Source: Gemmatimonadota bacterium
GTDB taxonomy: Bacteria; GCA-2686955
Direction: 5' to 3'
Assembly: GCA_002686955.1 (NCBI GenBank)
Contig: NYZA01000066.1
Coordinates: 1 to 45,719 of the forward strand
Length of the DNA: 45,719 bases
Shown: in pieces, positions 21,226 to 38,371 of the stretch
Layout: every line of letters begins with the position of its first letter
Numbering within the stretch: the stretch's first letter is position 1
The notes under the pieces: model-generated
The model's input: the letters and a program-made list of their open reading frames with translations, nothing else
Told to the model about the DNA's origin: nothing
Databases searched by the model: none
Position numbers and translations under genes: made by a program

Positions 21226-22302
21226 TCAACGAACGAGCAACATGCGGCGCAGCGATTTCGTACCGTCCGCTTCCAGGCGATAGAGGAAGACACCCGATGC
21301 CACCGGCCTGCCGCTATCGTCGTTTCCGTCCCAACGCAAGGCGTGCGAACCAGCCGGCATCAGGTCCGAGACCAGCGTGCGAATCCGATGGCCGCGGACG
21401 TCGAAAACGGCGAGCTCGACCGGTCCCGGCGATGCGAGCTCGAATCGGATCAGCGTGCTCGGGTTGAAGAGGTTTGGCGCGTTCTGCGCGAGCGAGGTGG
21501 ACGCACCGGGCGCTCCGCCACCGGGTTCACCCGAGCCTTCGACTGTTGTAGGCAGAAGCCGTTCGATGATCGCCGACATTTCGGTCGGCCGATACTCCGT
21601 ATCCGCGTACTGTACGATCCCTTCAGCGTCGATGATGTAGTCGCGCGGGTAGGGAGAGAGCCCCCCCAGGAGGTAGTAGCCGCTCGGTTCGTCGGTCAGC
21701 ACCGGAAAGGTGATGCCGGTCTGATCGATGAAATCGCGCAGCACCGGTTCGCTCTCGCGATTCGCGCCGAAGACCAACACGCCCTGATCACGATAAGTCT
21801 GCCAGAGTCCGCTTTCGATGTCCACCAACTGTGGACCGCAGACCGGTCACCAAGAGGCGAAGAAGGTCAAGACCACGACACTTCCACGAAGATCGGAAAG
21901 TGTCACTGTCTCGCCGTCCAACACCGGGATCGTGAAGTCGGGGGCGGGGTCGCCGACGTTCAGATCGGCGCTGTTCCCCTGAACCGAGAAGCGCAGCGCC
22001 GGATCGTCGGTGTCGTTCGATCTGATCGTGAAGCGTTGAATACCGATCTCTTCTTCGCTCGCCGTATAGGTGATGACCAGATCCCTTTGGTCGCCCGCCG
22101 CGATGTTGAAGGGTGCCGGGGGCGAGAGCGCCAGATCGGCGTGAGGCACATCGATCGATTCGATCGACAGGGTGGAGCCACCGTTGTTGCTCAGCACGAT
22201 CGTTGTATCGCGGCTGGTGCCCACCGCCCACGCGTTTTCGGTTGCAACCGCGGAGTAGGGGAGGGAGCATGCGGGATCCTCACGGTTGGTCCAGATCCAC
22301 AT
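21226..22302 (-). CDS. Selenocysteine-containing TlpA/redoxin-like protein with Ig-like and FlgD-like domains (in-frame TGA read as Sec)
   Basis: Two minus-strand frames lie in the same phase, separated by one TGA at 21849-21847. Joined, they give 358 residues. Residues 1 to about 110 form an ASH/HYDIN-like Ig module ([20 protein letters not shown]). Residues 113 to about 255 are a redoxin domain: [27 protein letters not shown], then U152-P-V-C155. About 270-358 is a C-terminal FlgD-like sorting module ([36 protein letters not shown]). The TGA falls exactly on the first cysteine of the thioredoxin-like CxxC, and a SECIS-like hairpin follows. The likely role is thiol oxidoreduction outside the cytoplasm. 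ATG 22302 lies 28 bp after the upstream stop but gives no signal peptide, so the true N-terminus is uncertain. A pseudogene is the alternative. Confidence 0.8.
21820..21849 (-). promoter_or_regulatory. Candidate bacterial SECIS element after the in-frame UGA
   Basis: On the minus strand, UGA (21849-21847) is followed by ten bases, then a perfect hairpin GUCCAC-AGUUG-GUGGAC (21836-21820). The loop starts 16 bases after the UGA and has G as its second base. This fits the published description of bacterial SECIS elements: apical loop about 16-37 bases after UGA, G in the first two loop positions, short perfect upper stem. It would recruit SelB to insert selenocysteine. Confidence 0.72.
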
Positions 22303-22330: not shown

Positions 22331-23605
22331 TCAAGTACGGCGGACGAGAACTCTCGAGATCCACCAGAGCATCGCGATACCGGTCGCGGAAAGCAGCAAG
22401 CCCGTCGCCCGCGCGAGTCGGGCGTCGGCGAAGAGGATGCCGAGGGTGCCGAACAATGAGGTCGATGCGTGTAGGCCGAAGGCGATTCTGAGACCGTGTC
22501 GCGGCAGAAGCTGCTTGGCGGTTGGCGTGGGTTGGCGACCGACCAGAGGGGCGAATCGGTGGAACCAGACGAGAAAAGGAACGATTCTGCTGAGCATGCC
22601 GTGGATGATCGTTCCGGCCCAACCCCAGATCGCGAGCCACGCCGCCAGTGCGGTGAGGCGGGGATCGGGCAGGAGCGAGGCGGCCGCCGCGGTGGGAGGC
22701 ACGAGGAGAGCGACGCTCAATCCCGTCCTCCAAAAAAGGACGCTGTCGTCGACCCGCTTCCGGCGGCGTCCCGAGAGGGCCCGGTGGGTGGCGATCGGGT
22801 GGATCCACCAGACGGCGATCGCACCCGGTATCGCGGCCGCGAGCATCCAGCCCTGCGAGAGGCGAAACACAAAGGCCAAGACTGTTGCGGCGACCGTGAC
22901 GGAAACGAGAGCGAGAATGCTCTTGCGCACCGCGTTGGAAAAAGGTGGTGCGAGGTAGAACATCGGGACGACCTGCCACGAGACCGCGGCGAGCAATCCC
23001 CCTACCCAACCGATCCCCGCGAGAGTCCAATGGCATATGAGCCTCTCTCTGCGCAGATCGGGCGACCACTTGAGGGCGTAGAGTGCCGCCAGTATGATCC
23101 CCAAGCTCAGCGCGAGAAGAAGCGAGATCCACGCCAATCCGATCCCACGAACCGTGTCGTTTTTCGTCGCCGCGCGTCCGAGAGCGACACCGGTGGGGAT
23201 CAAGAACGCGATCGATGCCGCCGTGAGCACGATCGACGCGAGCCAGAGCATATTCGTGCTCCCCGCCAACATCCCGCCCGCCAAGGCGCAGATTCCGAGC
23301 ACGAGAGCGGCGTGGACACCGCGGGCGATGCCCGTTGCCGGAACCGGCACGCCGGCCACCACGGGCAGAATCTGGTAGATCGCTCCGAACATCGCCATCG
23401 TCAGGAAGCCGAGTGTTCCCAGATGCACGAGCGCTACGGCGGTCGGTTCCCAGGGAGAGAGCCAGGGGATCTCGCCGAAAGCGATCAGAAGCGCTCCAGC
23501 CGCGACGATGGCCACCGGAGCGGTCACGAAGAAGCGGGAAGGGATCGCCAGCGGCGGTGCTTGCTCGAGGCTGAGCCCGGACTCGGCGCCGAAGGAGCTC
23601 ATCAT
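22331..23605 (-). CDS. Polytopic His-containing membrane protein (heme-copper oxidase/NnrS-like)
   Basis: 424 residues with about 12 membrane helices. Conserved-looking histidines sit in helices: [35 protein letters not shown] and [10 protein letters not shown]. The pattern PSRFF.TAP...L followed by 'HL.TLGF..M.MFGA..Q.LPV.AGV' matches a family of membrane proteins found beside nitric-oxide and cytochrome genes and sometimes labelled cytochrome-c-oxidase-subunit-I-like. Heme or metal binding is inferred from the histidines only. Start ATG 23605 overlaps the TetR stop (GGATGATGAG), so translation is coupled. The gene lies between the TetR-DUF2249 regulator and the selenoredoxin. Confidence 0.75.
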
Positions 23606-24678
23606 CCCCCGCGGATCAGCAGCAGCGTCCCGCGGACCCCTCGGTCGAGCAGCTCGTAGGCCAGCTCCCGCTCTTCGAGGTGGGGGATCAGCATGCGCGG
23701 GAAACGGGGCAGGCGGGCCAGATAGATTTCGCCCGGCTCGATGCTGCATGCCGCTTCCAGAACCCGCTCCAGCGGTCCCGGAGCCTCTAACTCCCGGAGA
23801 TCCGCAACCGGAGCTTTTCCTACGACGACCTCGACGATCCACCCTCCGTCGGGCAGCGGATCGGCTTGGACTCCGTGTCCCCGCTGGTCGAGCAGCACCA
23901 GGAGCGGAGCGGGACGAAAGGGCGCTTCTACGAGCAACACACTTCCTCGCGCCTGTCGTTCGAGCGCGGCGAGAATGGTCTCGAGCGGGTCCTGGCCCCG
24001 CGCGATGATCGGTCGCACATTGAGCTCTTCGATCGTGGGGGTTGCGGTGCTCGGGGACGCAGTCTCGGCGGATTCCGCCTTTTCGGCATCATCGGTCGCC
24101 GCGTCCGGAGCGGCGGCCACCCCCTCGAGCCACATGTCGACCAGCGGGCCGGCTTCATCGGCCAAGCCGGCGGGTCTCCCGGCCATCTGCCATTGAAGAA
24201 CGGTGCCCTGGATCATGCCGGTGTAGAGCGACGCGGCCCGCTGTGGCGTCGCCGAACGCGAGAGATCCCCCTCTCGCTGGCCCTGCATGAAGAACTCCTG
24301 GACGGCCGACCTTTGCATCGCGACGACATGGCGAATCGCCTGAGACACCGCGTCGCCGTCGTTCGCCGACTGGCCGAAGATCAGGCGCGGCAGCCCGGGG
24401 TTGCTCTCGACGTGACCGAGGATCGTGGCCGCGAGCGCGCCAAGGCGCCCGATTCCGGTCGCTTCCTCGCGCAGGATCCGCTCGGCTTCACCGGCCAGCG
24501 CTTCGCGCGTTCGGGTCACCACGGCGAGGAGCAGCGCCTCGCGGTTTCGGAAATGACGGAAAAGCGCCGGCTGGGTCACGCCCAGGACTCCCGCGACCTG
24601 ACGGGTCGTCACCTTCTCGAGCGGCGTTTCGGCGAGAAGATCGAGCACGACTTCGACAATTTCCGCCTTGCGGTCCAC
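23602..24678 (-). CDS. TetR-family regulator fused to two DUF2249-like domains
   Basis: 358 residues from the GTG at 24678, preferred because GGAG lies 9 bases upstream and the TetR domain begins directly after it (DRKAEIVEVVLDLLAETPLE, then VTTRQVAGVLGVTQPALFRHF, the helix-turn-helix). A C-terminal TetR sensor region follows, then a Pro/Thr/Ala linker, then two copies of a DUF2249-like fold: ELNVRPIIARGQDPLETILA and VADLRELEAPGPLERVLEAA. DUF2249 domains occur with hemerythrins and nitrogen-oxide proteins. A longer start at ATG 24726 is possible, but would place the 18-bp dyad inside the coding region. It faces a hemerythrin gene and is followed by the membrane protein and selenoredoxin. Confidence 0.85.
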   Translation of the reverse strand: MDRKAEIVEVVLDLLAETPLEKVTTRQVAGVLGVTQPALFRHFRNREALLLAVVTRTREALAGEAERILREEATGIGRLGALAATILGHVESNPGLPRLIFGQSANDGDAVSQAIRHVVAMQRSAVQEFFMQGQREGDLSRSATPQRAASLYTGMIQGTVLQWQMAGRPAGLADEAGPLVDMWLEGVAAAPDAATDDAEKAESAETASPSTATPTIEELNVRPIIARGQDPLETILAALERQARGSVLLVEAPFRPAPLLVLLDQRGHGVQADPLPDGGWIVEVVVGKAPVADLRELEAPGPLERVLEAACSIEPGEIYLARLPRFPRMLIPHLEERELAYELLDRGVRGTLLLIRGG

Positions 24679-30067: not shown

Positions 30068-32563
30068 ATGACACGACAAGGTCTCCCCGCATCTCTCGTT
30101 CTCCTTTTTTCCACGGCCGCGCTTTCCGCGACTCTCCGCGTCCCATCCGACTACGAGACGATCCAGGACGCGCTCGATCAAGCCGATCCAGGCGACGTCG
30201 TGCTCGTGGCGCCGGGACTGCATGAGGGTCCGCTGGAGGCCCGATCGCTAGATGTGACGATTCGCGGCGAAGGGCCGCGCCACTTCGTCGTCGTGGTGAG
30301 CGATCGTTCCGCTCCCGTAGTTACGATCCCGGCTGGAACAACCCTGGTTCTCGAATCGCTCACCCTGAGTGGCGGCTACCACGCAAGTTCGGGGGGCGGG
30401 ATTCGGGCGGAACACGGCGGAGGCGTGACGATCGACGACTGCGTAGTCCGCGACAACAGCTCGGACAGGGGAGGAGGCATAGGGATCGTTGACGGCGGTT
30501 GGGCCGTGATTCGAGGATCGGTGATCGAAGAGAACCAGGCGGCGACACGCGGGGGAGGTTTGCATCTGAACTCCTCGGATCTGCTCGTCGAGGATTCGCT
30601 GATCGAGAGGAACGCCGCCCCAGACGGGGGCGGTGCCTACGGGTTCAACGTCGCCGACATGACCCTCCGCCGAACCACGATTCGCGGAAATACAGCCGAT
30701 GTCGGCGGTGGCGTGAAGCTCTTCGCCGGAAGCGGCCCGATCCGCATCGAGGAATGCACGTTCGAGGCCAACAGCGCGCAGGGGGACGGCGGAGGATTGC
30801 TCGGGACCGACGCCGGAACCATCTACATCACCGAGAGCAGATTCGCCGAGAACAATGCGGCCGCGGGAGGCCTGGACGGCGCAGGCGGAGGCACGCTGTT
30901 CTACGGGGCTACCTTCGTCGACATCACGGCCACGGAGTTCGAAGGGAACTTCGCGGAAAGGGGCGCGGGAGTCAGAATAACCGGTGAAGGATCGGTCGAT
31001 ATCACCGACTGCGTTTTCCGTGAGAACCGGGCGGGGGACGATGAGCTGCCCGGCTACGGAGCCGGTGTGAACTACTACAATGGGGCGACCGGGCAGATCG
31101 TCAACAGCACGTTCGAGAACAACTCCGCGACCGCGGAAGGCGGCGGAATTCACATGCACGATGCGGACGCGGTCCTCGCCGATCTCCTGATCTGCGACAA
31201 TGCATCTCTGGCGCCGGATCTCCAGCATGGATATGGCGGAGGGGTCTTTCTCTACAATACCTTCTCGGAGCTGGTCGACAGCCACATCTGCCGAAACGCC
31301 GTCTCCCGAGCAGGTGGTGCGATCTACAGCCAAGGAACACCATTCCATTACGGTCCACGCCCCACCGGTTCGTTGATTGCGCGAAACCTGATCGAAGACA
31401 ACAGTGCGGAGGCCGGCGGCGGAATCGAATCGGCGGCCTACGATTCGCTCTGGATCGAAGGCAATCTGCTGCGCAACAACATCGCCGACCGCAAAGGCGG
31501 AATCGGAATCGACGCTAGCAGTGCCGCGCACGTCATCGACAACCGATTCGTGGGCAATGTCGCGACTTCGGCGATCACGACTCTAGGCGGCGCCGGGCTC
31601 TTTACCGGCGGATCGAGAATCGAGATATCGAACAACATCTTTGCCAAGAACTCGGCGCCGGCGGGTCATGGAGGGGCGATTCGCATCACGATGCCGGGGG
31701 CCCAAGCGCTCGTTCGCGACAACGTTTTCACCGAGAACGATGCCGATCGCGGGGGCGCGATCTTCTGTGACTCCGGTGCGGCTTTCGTGATGGTGCGCAA
31801 TCTCTTCGTGACCAATCGCGCAGGCACCGAGGGGGGGGCGATCATACTGAACTCACCCTGCACGGGGCGAGTCGAGAATAACACGATCGTGGCGACCGAG
31901 GTGAGCGCGGGAGAATCGGCGGCGGTCTCATACATGGGGTTCTGCGACGTCGTCTTTCTGCGCAACCTCGTCAGCGGAACGACCGGCGGGGTCGGGGTGC
32001 GCGCAACGGCCGACCAGCGCGCTACCTTGCTGAGCAGAAACCTCTTCTGGAACAATGAAGAGGGCCATTACAGAGGCCCGGTCGACTTAAGCTTCGACAT
32101 CTACGCGCCGCCCGAATTCGCACCCAACGACTCCCTCTTTCGGCTCCTGCCGGAGTCGCTCGCAATCGACGCCGGTGGGGCCGGCTGGGCGAGCGGTCCG
32201 CGTGATTTGGGGTGGATCGAATACGAGTATCCCCGTGCCCCTCTGGCAGCGGTGGCTCTCGACGGTCTTCCCAACACCATCTCTCCCGGCGATATCGTCG
32301 TCGGGAACCTGAGCGTGACCAACCTCTCGGAGATACAGAGAGTCGTCGAAGTAACCCTCGAGCTTGCCGCCAGATGGCCTGTCGCCCTTGATCCGCCGAT
32401 AGAGCTCAGTCTACCTCCTGCCCACACCACCGAGATCGAGCTGAGCTTCACCGTGCCGGTCTATTGCCCGAGCTGCGACGGCGGCCTGATCCTCATGACT
32501 CGGGCGTGGATCGACGGCGAGCTTCAGGCCGACGATGCGGACGATATCTGGGTGGAGCCCTGA
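30068..32563 (+). CDS. Secreted right-handed parallel beta-helix protein
   Basis: 831 residues. A short signal peptide (LPASLVLLFSTAALSA) is followed by ATLRVPSDYETIQDALDQA, the usual opening of polymorphic beta-helix outer-surface proteins. The central 550 residues are about 20-residue coils with repeated 'GGGI', 'I.nN.A..GGG' and 'N.F..N.A..GGAI' ladders. A closing 'LAIDAGGAGWASGPRDLGWI' block and an Ig-like tail with cysteines (CPSCDGG) end the protein. This is the same architecture as the fragment at the window start. Role unknown, probably adhesion or polysaccharide contact. GGAAGG lies 6 bases before the ATG. Confidence 0.88.
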   Translation: MTRQGLPASLVLLFSTAALSATLRVPSDYETIQDALDQADPGDVVLVAPGLHEGPLEARSLDVTIRGEGPRHFVVVVSDRSAPVVTIPAGTTLVLESLTLSGGYHASSGGGIRAEHGGGVTIDDCVVRDNSSDRGGGIGIVDGGWAVIRGSVIEENQAATRGGGLHLNSSDLLVEDSLIERNAAPDGGGAYGFNVADMTLRRTTIRGNTADVGGGVKLFAGSGPIRIEECTFEANSAQGDGGGLLGTDAGTIYITESRFAENNAAAGGLDGAGGGTLFYGATFVDITATEFEGNFAERGAGVRITGEGSVDITDCVFRENRAGDDELPGYGAGVNYYNGATGQIVNSTFENNSATAEGGGIHMHDADAVLADLLICDNASLAPDLQHGYGGGVFLYNTFSELVDSHICRNAVSRAGGAIYSQGTPFHYGPRPTGSLIARNLIEDNSAEAGGGIESAAYDSLWIEGNLLRNNIADRKGGIGIDASSAAHVIDNRFVGNVATSAITTLGGAGLFTGGSRIEISNNIFAKNSAPAGHGGAIRITMPGAQALVRDNVFTENDADRGGAIFCDSGAAFVMVRNLFVTNRAGTEGGAIILNSPCTGRVENNTIVATEVSAGESAAVSYMGFCDVVFLRNLVSGTTGGVGVRATADQRATLLSRNLFWNNEEGHYRGPVDLSFDIYAPPEFAPNDSLFRLLPESLAIDAGGAGWASGPRDLGWIEYEYPRAPLAAVALDGLPNTISPGDIVVGNLSVTNLSEIQRVVEVTLELAARWPVALDPPIELSLPPAHTTEIELSFTVPVYCPSCDGGLILMTRAWIDGELQADDADDIWVEP

Positions 32564-32639: not shown

Positions 32640-33881
32640 CTACTTCACCAGCACCATCTGTCGTGCCTCGGCACCCCGGTCGGTCTCGATCCGGTAGAGA
32701 TAGACACCGCTCGAAACGTCGGCGCCGCGGTCATCGCGACCGTCCCAGACCACCCGGTGCGTACCAGCTCCCCGTTCCGCGTCGACCAGGCGGCGGATCA
32801 TGTTGCCCGCCAGATCGTAGATCCCTAGGCGAACCGGAGTCGCTTCCGCAACGGTAAAGGCGATCGTCGTTCGAGGGTTGAAGGGGTTCGGTGCGTTCTG
32901 CGCCAGCTCGAGATGTCGGCCCGCCGGCAGTCCGGCGTTCGAGCGCAAAGTCACGATCTCGAACTGCCCATAGTGGTGGAGCGAGCTGTCCAGATCGATC
33001 TCGTCGAGTGCGTACCAGTAGCGCACCCCCTCTTCGAGGCCGTTATCGACGACCGAGTAATCGATCGGTCGCGCGGAGTAGCCGCCTGGCGCGGCCGGCA
33101 CCACATGCGTCAACTCCTTCCCCTCCATCGCGGGATTGTCCGCGCGGTAGACCTCGAAGTGGCTCGCGCCATCTTCGCTCACGGTGCGCCATTCGATATG
33201 CACCCCGTCGGAGGCCGGCAGCCCGCGGAAGTAGGCGAGCCGCACCGGCAAGTTCGCCTCACCGGTGATCCGTGCACCCGGCGAGTAGAGCGAGTTGTCG
33301 TCGGTATCGGCGACCGAGTGGTCCTCCCAAGATCCTCCCCCATCGGGATCGCGGGTGTAGCTCGCATCGGGATTCGAACTGGCCGAAGTGATCTGAACAG
33401 CACCTGAGCTCAACGGAACGGCTGAGCCCCAGTAAACCTCTACCGTGTCGGCCTGATCATCGGAGATCAGCCAAACGTTCTCGTTGTCGTTGCCCAGGCC
33501 ACTGCCGATCGAGCCGTCATCGGTGAACACCTGGTTCGTGAAGCCATCTGGAGTGCCGCCGCCGAAGACTGTGATCATCTCGTTAACGTGCATCGTGGTT
33601 CCGCCAGGAAAGGCGAACATGCTCCCGAAGGCGACGTCGTTGTCCCCGAGCCGGTAGTTGCTGATGTTCACTGTCGCGGGACCGGTGTTCAGGATCTCGA
33701 CGAACTCGTCCTCTTTATAGTGGGCAGTTCCGTCATTGTTGGCATCGCCCCGCTGGTCGACGTGGGAGGCGGGATCGAAATGGACCTCGTTGATAATGAG
33801 AGCTCCGTCCGCCGAAGGGGCGGCGAAGAAAGCGGCCAAGGCAAGGGCCGTAAGTCCCAGACACCAATCACAACGCTTCAT
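32640..33881 (-). CDS. Secreted lamin-tail-domain protein with FlgD-like C-terminus
   Basis: 413 residues. Signal peptide from ATG 33881 (LGLTALALAAFFAAPSADGA) with AGGAG about 6 bases upstream. The lamin tail domain begins LIINEVHFDP and contains DEFVEILNTGPATVNISNYR, residues about 27-175. A fibronectin-type-III-like segment follows (IEWRTVSEDGASHFEVYR). The last 85 residues (NAPNPFNPRTTIAFTV to MVLVK) form the FlgD-like sorting/Ig module shared with other exported proteins here. Extracellular; role unknown. It converges with the beta-helix gene. Confidence 0.88.
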   Translation of the reverse strand: MKRCDWCLGLTALALAAFFAAPSADGALIINEVHFDPASHVDQRGDANNDGTAHYKEDEFVEILNTGPATVNISNYRLGDNDVAFGSMFAFPGGTTMHVNEMITVFGGGTPDGFTNQVFTDDGSIGSGLGNDNENVWLISDDQADTVEVYWGSAVPLSSGAVQITSASSNPDASYTRDPDGGGSWEDHSVADTDDNSLYSPGARITGEANLPVRLAYFRGLPASDGVHIEWRTVSEDGASHFEVYRADNPAMEGKELTHVVPAAPGGYSARPIDYSVVDNGLEEGVRYWYALDEIDLDSSLHHYGQFEIVTLRSNAGLPAGRHLELAQNAPNPFNPRTTIAFTVAEATPVRLGIYDLAGNMIRRLVDAERGAGTHRVVWDGRDDRGADVSSGVYLYRIETDRGAEARQMVLVK

Positions 33882-34095
33882 AACGTTTCTCCTAGTGCGA
33901 CTTCCCACTCTCCGACCACCGGCGTGAGTCGGGTCGCGTTCAGTTCTTGGGCACCGAAGCCACGCAATACCCAAGGCGTGGATTCGGTCTGCTCTTCGTA
34001 CTTCGGCAAGCACGAGCCCGAACTGAAGTGAAAGGAGATATGCTCCCAAGATGTTGTCAGGGAACCCGCGAAGGCGCACGATCGGAACAGGTGTG

Positions 34096-35466
34096 ATGAG
34101 ATCACTGAAGGCGTGGATCCTGGGCCTGGCGATCCTGTCGACTCTCGCCTCCGCACAGGATCTCGAACGTCTTCCCCGCTTCCCCGGCGGTGCCGACTCG
34201 GAGCCGCCTCCACCGCCAACGAGCGCGGCGCACCGCAACCTGATCTTGATGATCGGCGACGGCATGGGGGTCGCTCAGCGCACAGCCGCCCGCCTGATCA
34301 CCGTCGGTAGCGAGGGCCGAACCGAAATCGACCGTCTTCCCGGTCTCTGCCTGGTGACCACTTGGTCGGCCGACGCCATGACCACCGACTCCGCGGCATC
34401 GGCCACGGCCTACGCCTGTGGAGTGAAGACGAACAACACGGTGCTCGGCCTCGATCGCAGCGGCAATCCCATCCCATCGATTCTCGAGCTGGCGAAGCAG
34501 GCCGGATACGCGACCGGTCTAGTCGCGACCTCGGATCTGACCGACGCGACCCCCGCTGCCTTCTACGCACATACCGCCTCCCGCGTTCGGTGGTGGGAGA
34601 TCCTAGATCAGCTCCTTCAAGTCGCCCCCGATCTGCTCCTCGGCGGCGGGCGGTCGGCCTGGATCGCCGACGGCGTCGATCTCGACGGCGACGGACTCAG
34701 CGATTCGCGCAGGCACGCCCTTCCAAGCGCCTCCGCGCGTCGCCGCTCCCCCCTCGATCTGGCCCGCGCCGCCGGCTATCGAATCGCCATGACCGATGAC
34801 GAGCTGACGCGAGCCGGCCCGGAAGGCGGCAAGCTGCTCGGCCTCTTCGCCCCGCACCATCTCGCATACGAGAAGGACCGTTTCGCGGGAGGTCCTCAAG
34901 AGAAGAGCGCCGCCGATCAGCCTCATCTCGCCGACATGACGCGAGCCGCGCTCGAGCGCCTTACGAAGACAGGTGAAAAGGGGTTCTTCCTGATGATCGA
35001 AGGATCGCGGATCGACATGGCCGCCCACGAGGGAGACGCCGAGGCGCAGGTATGGGAGACCGTGGCATTCGACGAAGCGGTTGGAGTGGCCCGCAGATTC
35101 GCGGCCAAGGACCGCCACACCCTATTGATCGTGACCGCCGACCACGAAACCGGTGGCCTCTTCCTGCCGGGATGGCGGCGCAGCGACGGAACGATCGGCT
35201 TCCAAAGAGGACGAGAAATCATCGCCAAAAGAGATGCGCGCGGCATGTCTCTCCCCACCCGCACCGATCCCGCCCCGCCGGCTTTCCATCTCGGCTGCGT
35301 CCGCCACGTCACACTGGGGGTTCCGGAGGACGATCCCGGCGCCGGACGAGGCGAGCACACCGCCGTCGACGTGCCGCTGGCGCATATGGGCCCCGGCGCC
35401 GAGGGGTTGCACGGCGTCATCGACAACAGCGACGTGTTCGAGGTGATGGCGGACTATCTGTTCTGA
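34096..35466 (+). CDS. phoA: Alkaline phosphatase
   Basis: 456 residues. Start ATG 34096 gives a canonical signal peptide (AWILGLAILSTLASAQ); the upstream ATG at 34051 would lengthen the n-region. Active-site elements: LMIGDGMG with a metal Asp, nucleophilic Ser in TTDSAASATAYACG, MIEGSRIDMAAHEGD, TADHETGG and GEHTAVDVPL. It hydrolyses phosphomonoesters in the periplasm or outside. The gene diverges from the lamin-tail gene across about 215 bp, which must hold both promoters. I see no Pho box that I can defend. Confidence 0.94.
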   Translation: MRSLKAWILGLAILSTLASAQDLERLPRFPGGADSEPPPPPTSAAHRNLILMIGDGMGVAQRTAARLITVGSEGRTEIDRLPGLCLVTTWSADAMTTDSAASATAYACGVKTNNTVLGLDRSGNPIPSILELAKQAGYATGLVATSDLTDATPAAFYAHTASRVRWWEILDQLLQVAPDLLLGGGRSAWIADGVDLDGDGLSDSRRHALPSASARRRSPLDLARAAGYRIAMTDDELTRAGPEGGKLLGLFAPHHLAYEKDRFAGGPQEKSAADQPHLADMTRAALERLTKTGEKGFFLMIEGSRIDMAAHEGDAEAQVWETVAFDEAVGVARRFAAKDRHTLLIVTADHETGGLFLPGWRRSDGTIGFQRGREIIAKRDARGMSLPTRTDPAPPAFHLGCVRHVTLGVPEDDPGAGRGEHTAVDVPLAHMGPGAEGLHGVIDNSDVFEVMADYLF

Positions 35467-36684: not shown

Positions 36685-36760
36685 CGCGAGGCGCAGGCGG
36701 GTTTACCTTTGCGCCTCGCGAGAGACGGCGCACCGCTCCCACGATGGTCCTGTGGGAGTG
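36685..36760 (+). promoter_or_regulatory. Riboswitch expression platform: leader hairpin and RBS-sequestering hairpin
   Basis: CGCGAGGCGCA (36685-36695) pairs perfectly with TGCGCCTCGCG (36710-36720). A second hairpin pairs CGCTCCCAC (36734-36742) with GTGGGAGTG (36752-36760), which contains the GGGAG ribosome binding site of the gene starting at 36764. There is no T-run. This suggests translational control: when the hairpin forms, the ribosome binding site is hidden. Confidence 0.65.
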
Positions 36761-36763
36761 ACG

Positions 36764-38371
36764 ATGAGCAACCACATTGTGATCGGCTTTTTCGGCGCGG
36801 CTCTCGGAGCATGGGCTTCGATCTCGGGGGCACCGACCGCCAGGGCGCAGGAGTGGGGCGACGAGATCGTCCTGCTCGAGTCCCCCGGAATCCCGTCGTA
36901 CGTCGGCCTCTCGAACGGTGGAATCGCCGTCACCCCCGACCGCACGATCCACGTCGTCTGGACCGAGCAGGACGCCGAGCTCGAGGGCTCGCTTCGCCAT
37001 CAGGTCTACACCGCCGAAGTCGTCGATAACGCGGTGAGCACTGCCGCCCACGTCATCGTTCCCTATCTCGATTCCTACCCGGGACGGCCCGATACCGGCG
37101 CGAAGTGGCCCACACTCGCGACCGATCCCGAGGGGGGGCTCCATCTCGCCTGGCACGACTACCGGATCGGCGAGATCTGGAACGTCGAGATCTACTACAA
37201 GCAGCGCCCGCCTGTCACCGAGTGGGATCCCTCCCCTTCCGCCGATCTGAGGCTGACCACCACCGACCACCCAGAATGGAACGGTGACAACGGATACCTG
37301 CCGACGATCCGCCGCTCCCCACTGGGAGAGCTGAGGGTTGTCTGGTTCGACATGCGCTTCTATCCCGAGGAGGCCGAGATCATGTCGAAGGCGACCCTCC
37401 CGGAAGGGGGGTGGGACACGACTCCGGGCGACTCCGCGGACGAGCGTCTCACCGAGAATCCGGCCAATTCCGAGTTTCCCGATCTCGTCTTCGATCCGGA
37501 GGGTGCGGCGCACGTCGTCTACGCCGAGAATTCGAACGATATCTACGGCATCTACTACACCTGGCTGCCCGCGGGCGAAGCCGAGTGGAGCCTGCCCCAG
37601 AGGATCACGCCCGACAGCGTGGTGGCCCGATCGCCCTCACTCGCCCCCTCTCCCGATGGTTCGATACTCTGCGTTTGGGAGGACGGGCGGGACGGCGCGG
37701 CCCGAGTCTATGCCGCACTTCTCGACTCGGCGGGTGGGTCATGGGGAGAAGCCGAACCGGTCAGCCCGATCGGTGTAGGGGTTTCGGGACCGGCCGCGGC
37801 AGCGTCCCCCGACGGCATCTTCCACATAGTCTGGTCCGATCGCAGGCTCGGTTTCTTCGACGATGTCGTCTGGTGCCAGCACGGGAGAGGGGGGGACTGG
37901 GACCCTTCTGGAGCCGCGGACGAGCGGGTTTCGACCGGTACCCGAGCGACCGACCCGGAGATCACCGGTTCTTGGGACGGACGCGTCATTGTCTCGTGGC
38001 GCGACAAGAGTGAAGACAGCTCGGCCGACATCTGGATGCGGATTCGCTCCGCCGGGCCGACCGAGGTGGCCGATTCCCCCCGTGCGACTCCGGCGCGTTC
38101 ACGCTTCGGCAACCCCCATCCCAATCCCTTCAATCCGCGCGTCATTCTACCGGTCGAGCTCTCCTTCGAGGGCTTCGTGCGGGTCGAAATTCACGATATC
38201 TCCGGCCGTAGGGTTCGGCGCCTCTTGAGGGAGCACCTCGAGTCCGGAACCCACCGCCTTCTCTGGGATGGGCGGAATGACGCAGGTCGTCCCCTTCCCA
38301 GTGGCCCCTATATCGCCCGCCTCATCTCCGCGGAGACCGAAGCGCGCACAACGCTAGTTCTTCTCAAATAG
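36764..38371 (+). CDS. Secreted propeller-like protein with FlgD-like C-terminus, first gene of the cobalamin operon
   Basis: 535 residues. Start ATG 36764, chosen because GGGAG lies five bases upstream; an in-frame GTG at 36752 overlaps that site. Signal peptide to about residue 29 (ending ARAQ). The mature part has repeated sialidase-like units such as 'GGLHLAWHDYR', 'ELRVVWFDMRF', 'GAAHVVYAENS', 'SILCVWEDGRDG' and 'GIFHIVWSDRR'. The last 85 residues (NPHPNPFNPRVILPVELS onward) are the FlgD-like module. It directly follows a cobalamin riboswitch, so its amount should fall when B12 is plentiful. Role unknown, possibly surface corrinoid capture. Confidence 0.85.
   Translation: MSNHIVIGFFGAALGAWASISGAPTARAQEWGDEIVLLESPGIPSYVGLSNGGIAVTPDRTIHVVWTEQDAELEGSLRHQVYTAEVVDNAVSTAAHVIVPYLDSYPGRPDTGAKWPTLATDPEGGLHLAWHDYRIGEIWNVEIYYKQRPPVTEWDPSPSADLRLTTTDHPEWNGDNGYLPTIRRSPLGELRVVWFDMRFYPEEAEIMSKATLPEGGWDTTPGDSADERLTENPANSEFPDLVFDPEGAAHVVYAENSNDIYGIYYTWLPAGEAEWSLPQRITPDSVVARSPSLAPSPDGSILCVWEDGRDGAARVYAALLDSAGGSWGEAEPVSPIGVGVSGPAAAASPDGIFHIVWSDRRLGFFDDVVWCQHGRGGDWDPSGAADERVSTGTRATDPEITGSWDGRVIVSWRDKSEDSSADIWMRIRSAGPTEVADSPRATPARSRFGNPHPNPFNPRVILPVELSFEGFVRVEIHDISGRRVRRLLREHLESGTHRLLWDGRNDAGRPLPSGPYIARLISAETEARTTLVLLK

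Follow-up and report, generated by a model that had tools for sequence, protein, structure and literature searches.

Within the window, the 45,719-nucleotide stretch of DNA analysed here, a minus-strand frame resembling a redoxin is interrupted by one TGA. Does this codon end a gene, reflect an error in the sequence or encode selenocysteine (Sec), and to what kind of protein would it belong in the last case? The window is part of a metagenome-assembled genome (MAG) of 4.28 Mb in 270 contigs, 84.5% complete.

Reading the TGA as Sec (U), we obtained from 22302-21226 a product whose sole internal stop, U152, lies within FFASW-U-PVCGPQ; its parts are listed in Table 1. Two Pfam families match this read-through product across the TGA and exceed their gathering scores, AhpC-TSA (PF00578; 1.4e-24, 86.9 bits) and Redoxin (PF08534; 1.9e-20, 73.6 bits). 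The single-frame translation and these matches bear out the preliminary description, which had placed an in-frame TGA at the first CxxC position of a redoxin. The C-terminus matches FlgD_ig above the threshold (1.7e-8), and the N-terminus gives a weak HYDIN/ASH Ig match (0.0066 / 0.14) that is stronger in a relative (L052; 1.6e-11). For the Por_Secre_tail model, the window copy falls short of the cut-off of 23 bits, whereas two relatives exceed it (L102, 39.5; L117, 24.7). The AlphaFold2 model displays three confident domains, preceded by 23 disordered residues (pLDDT < 50). In profile and fold searches, the redoxin domain lies nearest to ResA and related extracytoplasmic thiol-disulfide oxidoreductases. 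Foldseek aligned the model with ResA at an E-value of about 1e-11 and a TM-score by target of 0.84 and, together with the PDB profile search, assigned the window redoxin a ResA/TlpA-like fold with a CxxC-type active site. Tailed proteins are plentiful in the window, which also encodes, at 30068-32563, 32640-34265 and 36752-38371, a beta-helix protein and a pair of proteins ending in FlgD tails, one of them with a lamin-tail domain.

Table 1. Features of the selenoprotein locus, in window coordinates
Feature	Position	Strand	Basis
Selenoprotein gene, short form (Ig / Sec-redoxin / FlgD-like tail), 358 aa	21226..22302	minus	translation, Pfam domains, full-length relatives
Terminal TGA stop of the selenoprotein gene	21226-21228	minus	
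Sec codon UGA (U152), position 1 of the UPVC motif	21847..21849	minus	UGA in every Ig+redoxin relative; Cys in redoxin-only homologues
bSECIS-like hairpin within the coding sequence	21820..21836	minus	stem of 6 bp (7 bp in many relatives), core loop GUU with G first
ASH/HYDIN-like Ig module, residues ~27-109	21976..22224	minus	weak Pfam match; stronger in relatives; beta sandwich in AlphaFold2 model
ResA/TlpA-like redoxin domain, residues 116-244	21571..21957	minus	Pfam, PDB profile search, Foldseek top hits 2ls5 and ResA
FlgD-Ig / T9SS-type sorting tail, residues ~272-358	21229..21489	minus	FlgD_ig 34.8 bits; Por_Secre_tail TIGR04183 18.2 bits
Unrelated membrane-protein gene upstream	22331..23842	minus	stop 28 bp before the selenoprotein ATG

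We confined searches for relatives to the Ig+redoxin part because the FlgD tail alone matches many unrelated proteins; indeed, the same type of tail ends many other proteins of the window genome. A full-length search recovered the Ig+redoxin core with one TGA in a second genome (G056) and in a paralogue within the window genome. When an Ig+redoxin profile was run against 386 genomes, every sequence spanning both domains among the matches listed carried one TGA: that in G056, four in the window genome (on contigs C27, C66, C108 and C203), two in G208 and a fragment in G199, which carries a TAG besides the TGA. The redoxin-only matches in these genomes mostly have Cys. The window genome thus holds four family genes with TGA, the three further Sec paralogues being those on C27, C108 and C203 (L053, L092 and L093). 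A WUxxC pattern scan of the same genome gave two further matches (C144 and C262) that are noise, with stop-filled frames and no domain-like sequence. A further scan took in a collection of 84,980 genomes; its query had X in place of the Sec column, which leaves the choice of codon unbiased. All 28 loci spanning Ig and redoxin have TGA at the Sec codon, and their carriers belong to Neomarinimicrobiota, KSB1, Calditrichota (including a MAG named Caldithrix abyssi), WOR-3, unassigned FCB-type MAGs and one member of the Myxococcales. The same holds for 23 of 23 members in 22 carrier genomes among 120 genomes of Candidatus Neomarinimicrobiota (the phylum of L100). After removal of overlaps, about 47 distinct Ig+redoxin genes remain, all with TGA and none with Cys.

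This distribution bears on whether the TGA stands for a TGC or TGT of an ordinary Cys redoxin, miscalled in sequencing or assembly. Such an error would be conceivable for a single MAG contig, the more so as Cys homologues of the redoxin domain exist. Yet the TGA is common to the roughly 47 family members of independent genomes, where it is accompanied by a covarying hairpin, and because so many genes share it an error is excluded in practice and its probability negligible. The alignment speaks equally to a true stop, after which the downstream frame would restart as a second gene. Automatic calling does yield two open reading frames here, but the UGA sits inside the redoxin fold, between the two halves of one Pfam domain, and replaces a catalytic Cys, and in none of the relatives is the domain complete on one side alone. 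An ordinary stop, or two genes, is contradicted by the family alignment; we rejected this reading as very improbable. As expected for Sec, U152 aligns with the Cys of redoxin-only homologues. In a redoxin tree, the Ig-Sec family forms one clade that includes the window sequence (25 rows, SH-aLRT 99), and U152, P153, C155, P217 and P219 are invariant in 25 members, P219 likely occupying the cis-Pro place. Outside this main family stands a 605-residue frame (L054; G002:C35:36903-37352, minus) that combines a signal peptide, an N-terminal Sec redoxin (ATWUGGC) and a T9SS-type tail, and that also has a SECIS-like hairpin.

Downstream of the UGA, the window transcript can form the hairpin GUCCAC-AGUUG-GUGGAC, starting 10 nt past the codon; its 5-nt loop begins after 16 nt from the UGA and has G at loop position 2. 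Considered by itself, the window hairpin is within chance expectation (fold z = -1.38; 6 of 7 pairs, P = 0.097 under synonymous-codon resampling). Rather, its significance lies in its conservation and covariation among relatives. The register is identical, 10 nt past the UGA, in 32 family members, in which 197 of 224 possible pairs are formed against 112.8 ± 5.6 under synonymous resampling, a distance that, expressed in standard deviations, overstates independence as the 32 genes are kin. Across 20 diverse Sec redoxins (16 family members and four others), 90.7% of cells are paired, compared with 65.1% in shuffled and 26-49% in slid alignments, and the covariation score of 0.695 (0.203 when shuffled) was reached in 0 of 500 shuffles. 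In six of the seven pairs both partners have changed, and the core loop invariably opens with G (GUU, GGU, GGC or GUC). By contrast, 39 Cys redoxins form on average only 2.7 of 7 pairs in the same register. These comparisons are strong evidence that the covarying hairpin is an RNA structure under selection that is coupled to the UGA. The proposed fit to the bacterial SECIS rule stands accordingly: the hairpin is placed as described, close homologues with the TGA carry it too, and Cys homologues lack it. An Rfam scan of the selenoprotein gene returned no SECIS-type or other credible family.

The genome also encodes the means to decode the codon. The search for Sec machinery, set beforehand as a refutation test, found every component in the window genome: a tRNA-Sec(UCA) (76.9 bits, with ARAGORN concurring), SelA (498.7 bits), SelB (359.4 bits, over its frame) and SelD (322.6 bits). 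The selD gene (L056; G000:C248:6306-7232) has an in-frame TGA of its own (GGUARK), and SelD of this genome is likely itself a selenoprotein. Family and machinery occur together more widely. SelA occurs in all 27 genomes that contribute family members from the 84,980-genome collection, and in the 120-genome phylum sample it is present in 21 of 22 carriers versus 67 of 98 non-carriers (Fisher P 0.0075). The one carrier in that sample that lacks a SelA match, G467, is a draft genome with its family member on contig C248; a gap in the draft or borrowed machinery may account for the missing match.

From the sequence evidence as a whole, we consider it highly probable that the UGA is decoded as Sec in a Sec-only redoxin family whose typical members are exported and tail-displayed, and of which the window copy is a short form. 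tRNA-Sec and SelB would read the UGA at 21849-21847 under the direction of the SECIS hairpin in the downstream coding sequence, yielding a ResA/TlpA-like thiol-disulfide oxidoreductase as catalytic part, with UxxC replacing CxxC. Typical members would be exported, and the C-terminal T9SS/FlgD or dockerin tail would lead to display or release outside the cell. There, Sec would attack, form a selenenylsulfide with the second Cys and reduce disulfides (or peroxides) on outside substrates, while binding or anchoring is the probable role of the LVIVD propeller and the Ig module. The most likely reaction is exchange or reduction of disulfides on substrates outside the cell, with Sec attacking; peroxide reduction is a less likely alternative. 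Here the reaction, the substrates and the surface location are what we infer, whereas Sec coding, hairpin covariation, Sec machinery, domains and the relatives' signal peptides were computed.

Typical family members are larger than the window protein. Over 630-730 residues, they align a signal peptide, LVIVD repeats (~320 aa), an ASH/HYDIN-like Ig module, the Sec-redoxin and a FlgD_ig/T9SS or dockerin-like tail; the paralogue on C27 has an additional upstream repeat region that, by appearance, resembles a beta-helix. All nine relatives inspected have hydrophobic N-termini, with a peak hydropathy of 2.4-3.4, and export of the Ig-Sec family is well supported. The arrangement of ASH-like Ig, Sec redoxin and FlgD-like modules first proposed for the window protein is indeed present in it, yet it is a shortened version of this longer standard form.

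The window copy starts within the Ig module. Its peak N-terminal hydropathy is 0.76, it has neither a signal peptide nor an LVIVD propeller, and no frame near the gene holds an LVIVD sequence or offers, upstream of 22302, another start that would supply a signal peptide. Where the 5' part of the selenoprotein gene is missing, the upstream membrane-protein gene stands instead, with 28 bp between its stop and the ATG. In a sister genus (L174, G001:C717), the homologue of this upstream gene is followed by a gene that by eye looks rubrerythrin-like and by a sulfotransferase, with no redoxin; the two loci differ by a rearrangement. The window copy has no signal peptide or anchor of the kind that would place a ResA/TlpA-like protein outside the cytoplasm, and its export, as originally suggested, is unsupported because it lacks both signal peptide and propeller. 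This leaves two readings, a short form that stays in the cytoplasm or a paralogue truncated at its 5' end. If the latter, it would be the non-functional or poorly expressed 3' fragment of a full-length gene (signal peptide, LVIVD, Ig, Sec-redoxin, tail) left behind an unrelated membrane-protein gene, or an assembler join, giving little or no exported protein while the family itself stays real. The missing N-terminal parts, the short distance to an unrelated stop, the disordered first residues of the model, the different neighbour in the sister genus and the outcome of a promoter/terminator scan, which found no site at the gene, all agree with such a fragment, and we hold it quite possible, if short of probable. 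Against it, the 358-codon frame is otherwise intact and hairpin, UxxC and tail end are conserved; therefore either the truncation is recent or the short form has been selected.

In some Neomarinimicrobiota, the Sec gene has recurrent neighbours (L108:1533-4923, with matching genes in L100, L104, L106, L109, L112 and L119), namely a secreted thioredoxin, what may be an outer-membrane protein, and a DUF3179 lipoprotein, a kind already catalogued among selenoproteins. Near the main gene there is also another exported redoxin, smaller and with a T9SS-type tail (L101 ~201, L103 ~4294, L113 ~4781 and L106 ~2864). It has Sec in L101, L103 and L113, where 7, 7 and 5 of 7 hairpin pairs form, and Cys in L106, where 2 of 7 form; the genes read as a Sec/Cys exchange in which the hairpin has been gained or lost. 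The DUF3179 lipoprotein, the secreted thioredoxin and the smaller Sec redoxin would fit an extracytoplasmic redox module.

In its broadest form, our proposal is that the selenoproteins of one widespread family in FCB-type phyla, with signal peptide, LVIVD propeller, ASH Ig, Sec-redoxin and T9SS/dockerin tail, lie on the cell surface or are secreted, and that this family is strictly selenium-dependent and has no Cys orthologue of the full architecture; we lean modestly toward this view. If it holds, these uncultured bacteria would require Sec for a redox function outside the cell, and their selenium supply would sustain chemistry there. It is mostly through their Cys versions that predicted selenoproteins are recognised, and the authors of deep-Sep state that Sec families without Cys versions may be missed (PMC12013277); the multi-domain family described here has Sec in every case seen, across several phyla. 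Ordinary gene calling splits its genes, leaving annotations of a truncated LVIVD protein and a stray tail. The family suggests redox chemistry outside the cell that depends on selenium, and it offers a clear target for testing why Sec is kept.

How does this family compare with known systems? ResA, TlpA and DsbE, to which the catalytic domain comes closest among solved structures and profiles, have CxxC at the place of the window UxxC. Unlike the family, they are single-domain Cys proteins without Ig module, propeller or sorting tail. Redoxin and Prx-like selenoproteins with UxxC are already known (PMC13188914, PMC2398784). These thiol:disulfide oxidoreductases belong to the same superfamily (PF00578 / PF08534) and likewise have Sec at UxxC position 1 with a bSECIS downstream, but they are catalogued by catalytic domain, with no mention of an LVIVD-Ig-redoxin-tail arrangement (PMC13188914, PMC2398784). 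A 'Redoxin family protein' catalogued there (PMC13188914), HEU0032618.1, may or may not belong to the Ig-Sec family. The fusion selenoproteins of the GOS marine metagenome set a precedent for Prx-like and Trx-like Sec domains fused to others, although their partners are UGSC/Unknown, distant Secretin_N and unknown domains rather than LVIVD-Ig-tail (PMC2398784). NCBIfam NF041054 (ResA-like WAxxUGC motif-containing protein) is also a ResA-like Sec protein, but its motif differs and it scores the window protein at 30.5 bits with a cut-off of 300; none of the selenoprotein models in NCBIfam 20.0 had its curated cut-off reached by family proteins. Signal peptide, LVIVD, Ig and sorting domains are common to the full-length relatives and to the FCB surface proteins with T9SS type A or FlgD tails and LVIVD (choice-of-anchor B). 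Our literature search found no description of selenocysteine in T9SS/FlgD-tailed or LVIVD proteins: LVIVD with seleno- terms returned nothing, and FlgD or type IX secretion with selenium returned only papers that seem unrelated by title or abstract. DsbA-like and DsbG-like selenoproteins are periplasmic. Export of bacterial selenoproteins is in itself nothing new; the kinds listed in a 2026 review include these two. Of the exported Sec architecture suggested as possibly new in the preliminary description, UxxC redoxins and export of selenoproteins have precedents, and the Sec-only LVIVD-Ig-redoxin-tail architecture is the part that appears to be undescribed.
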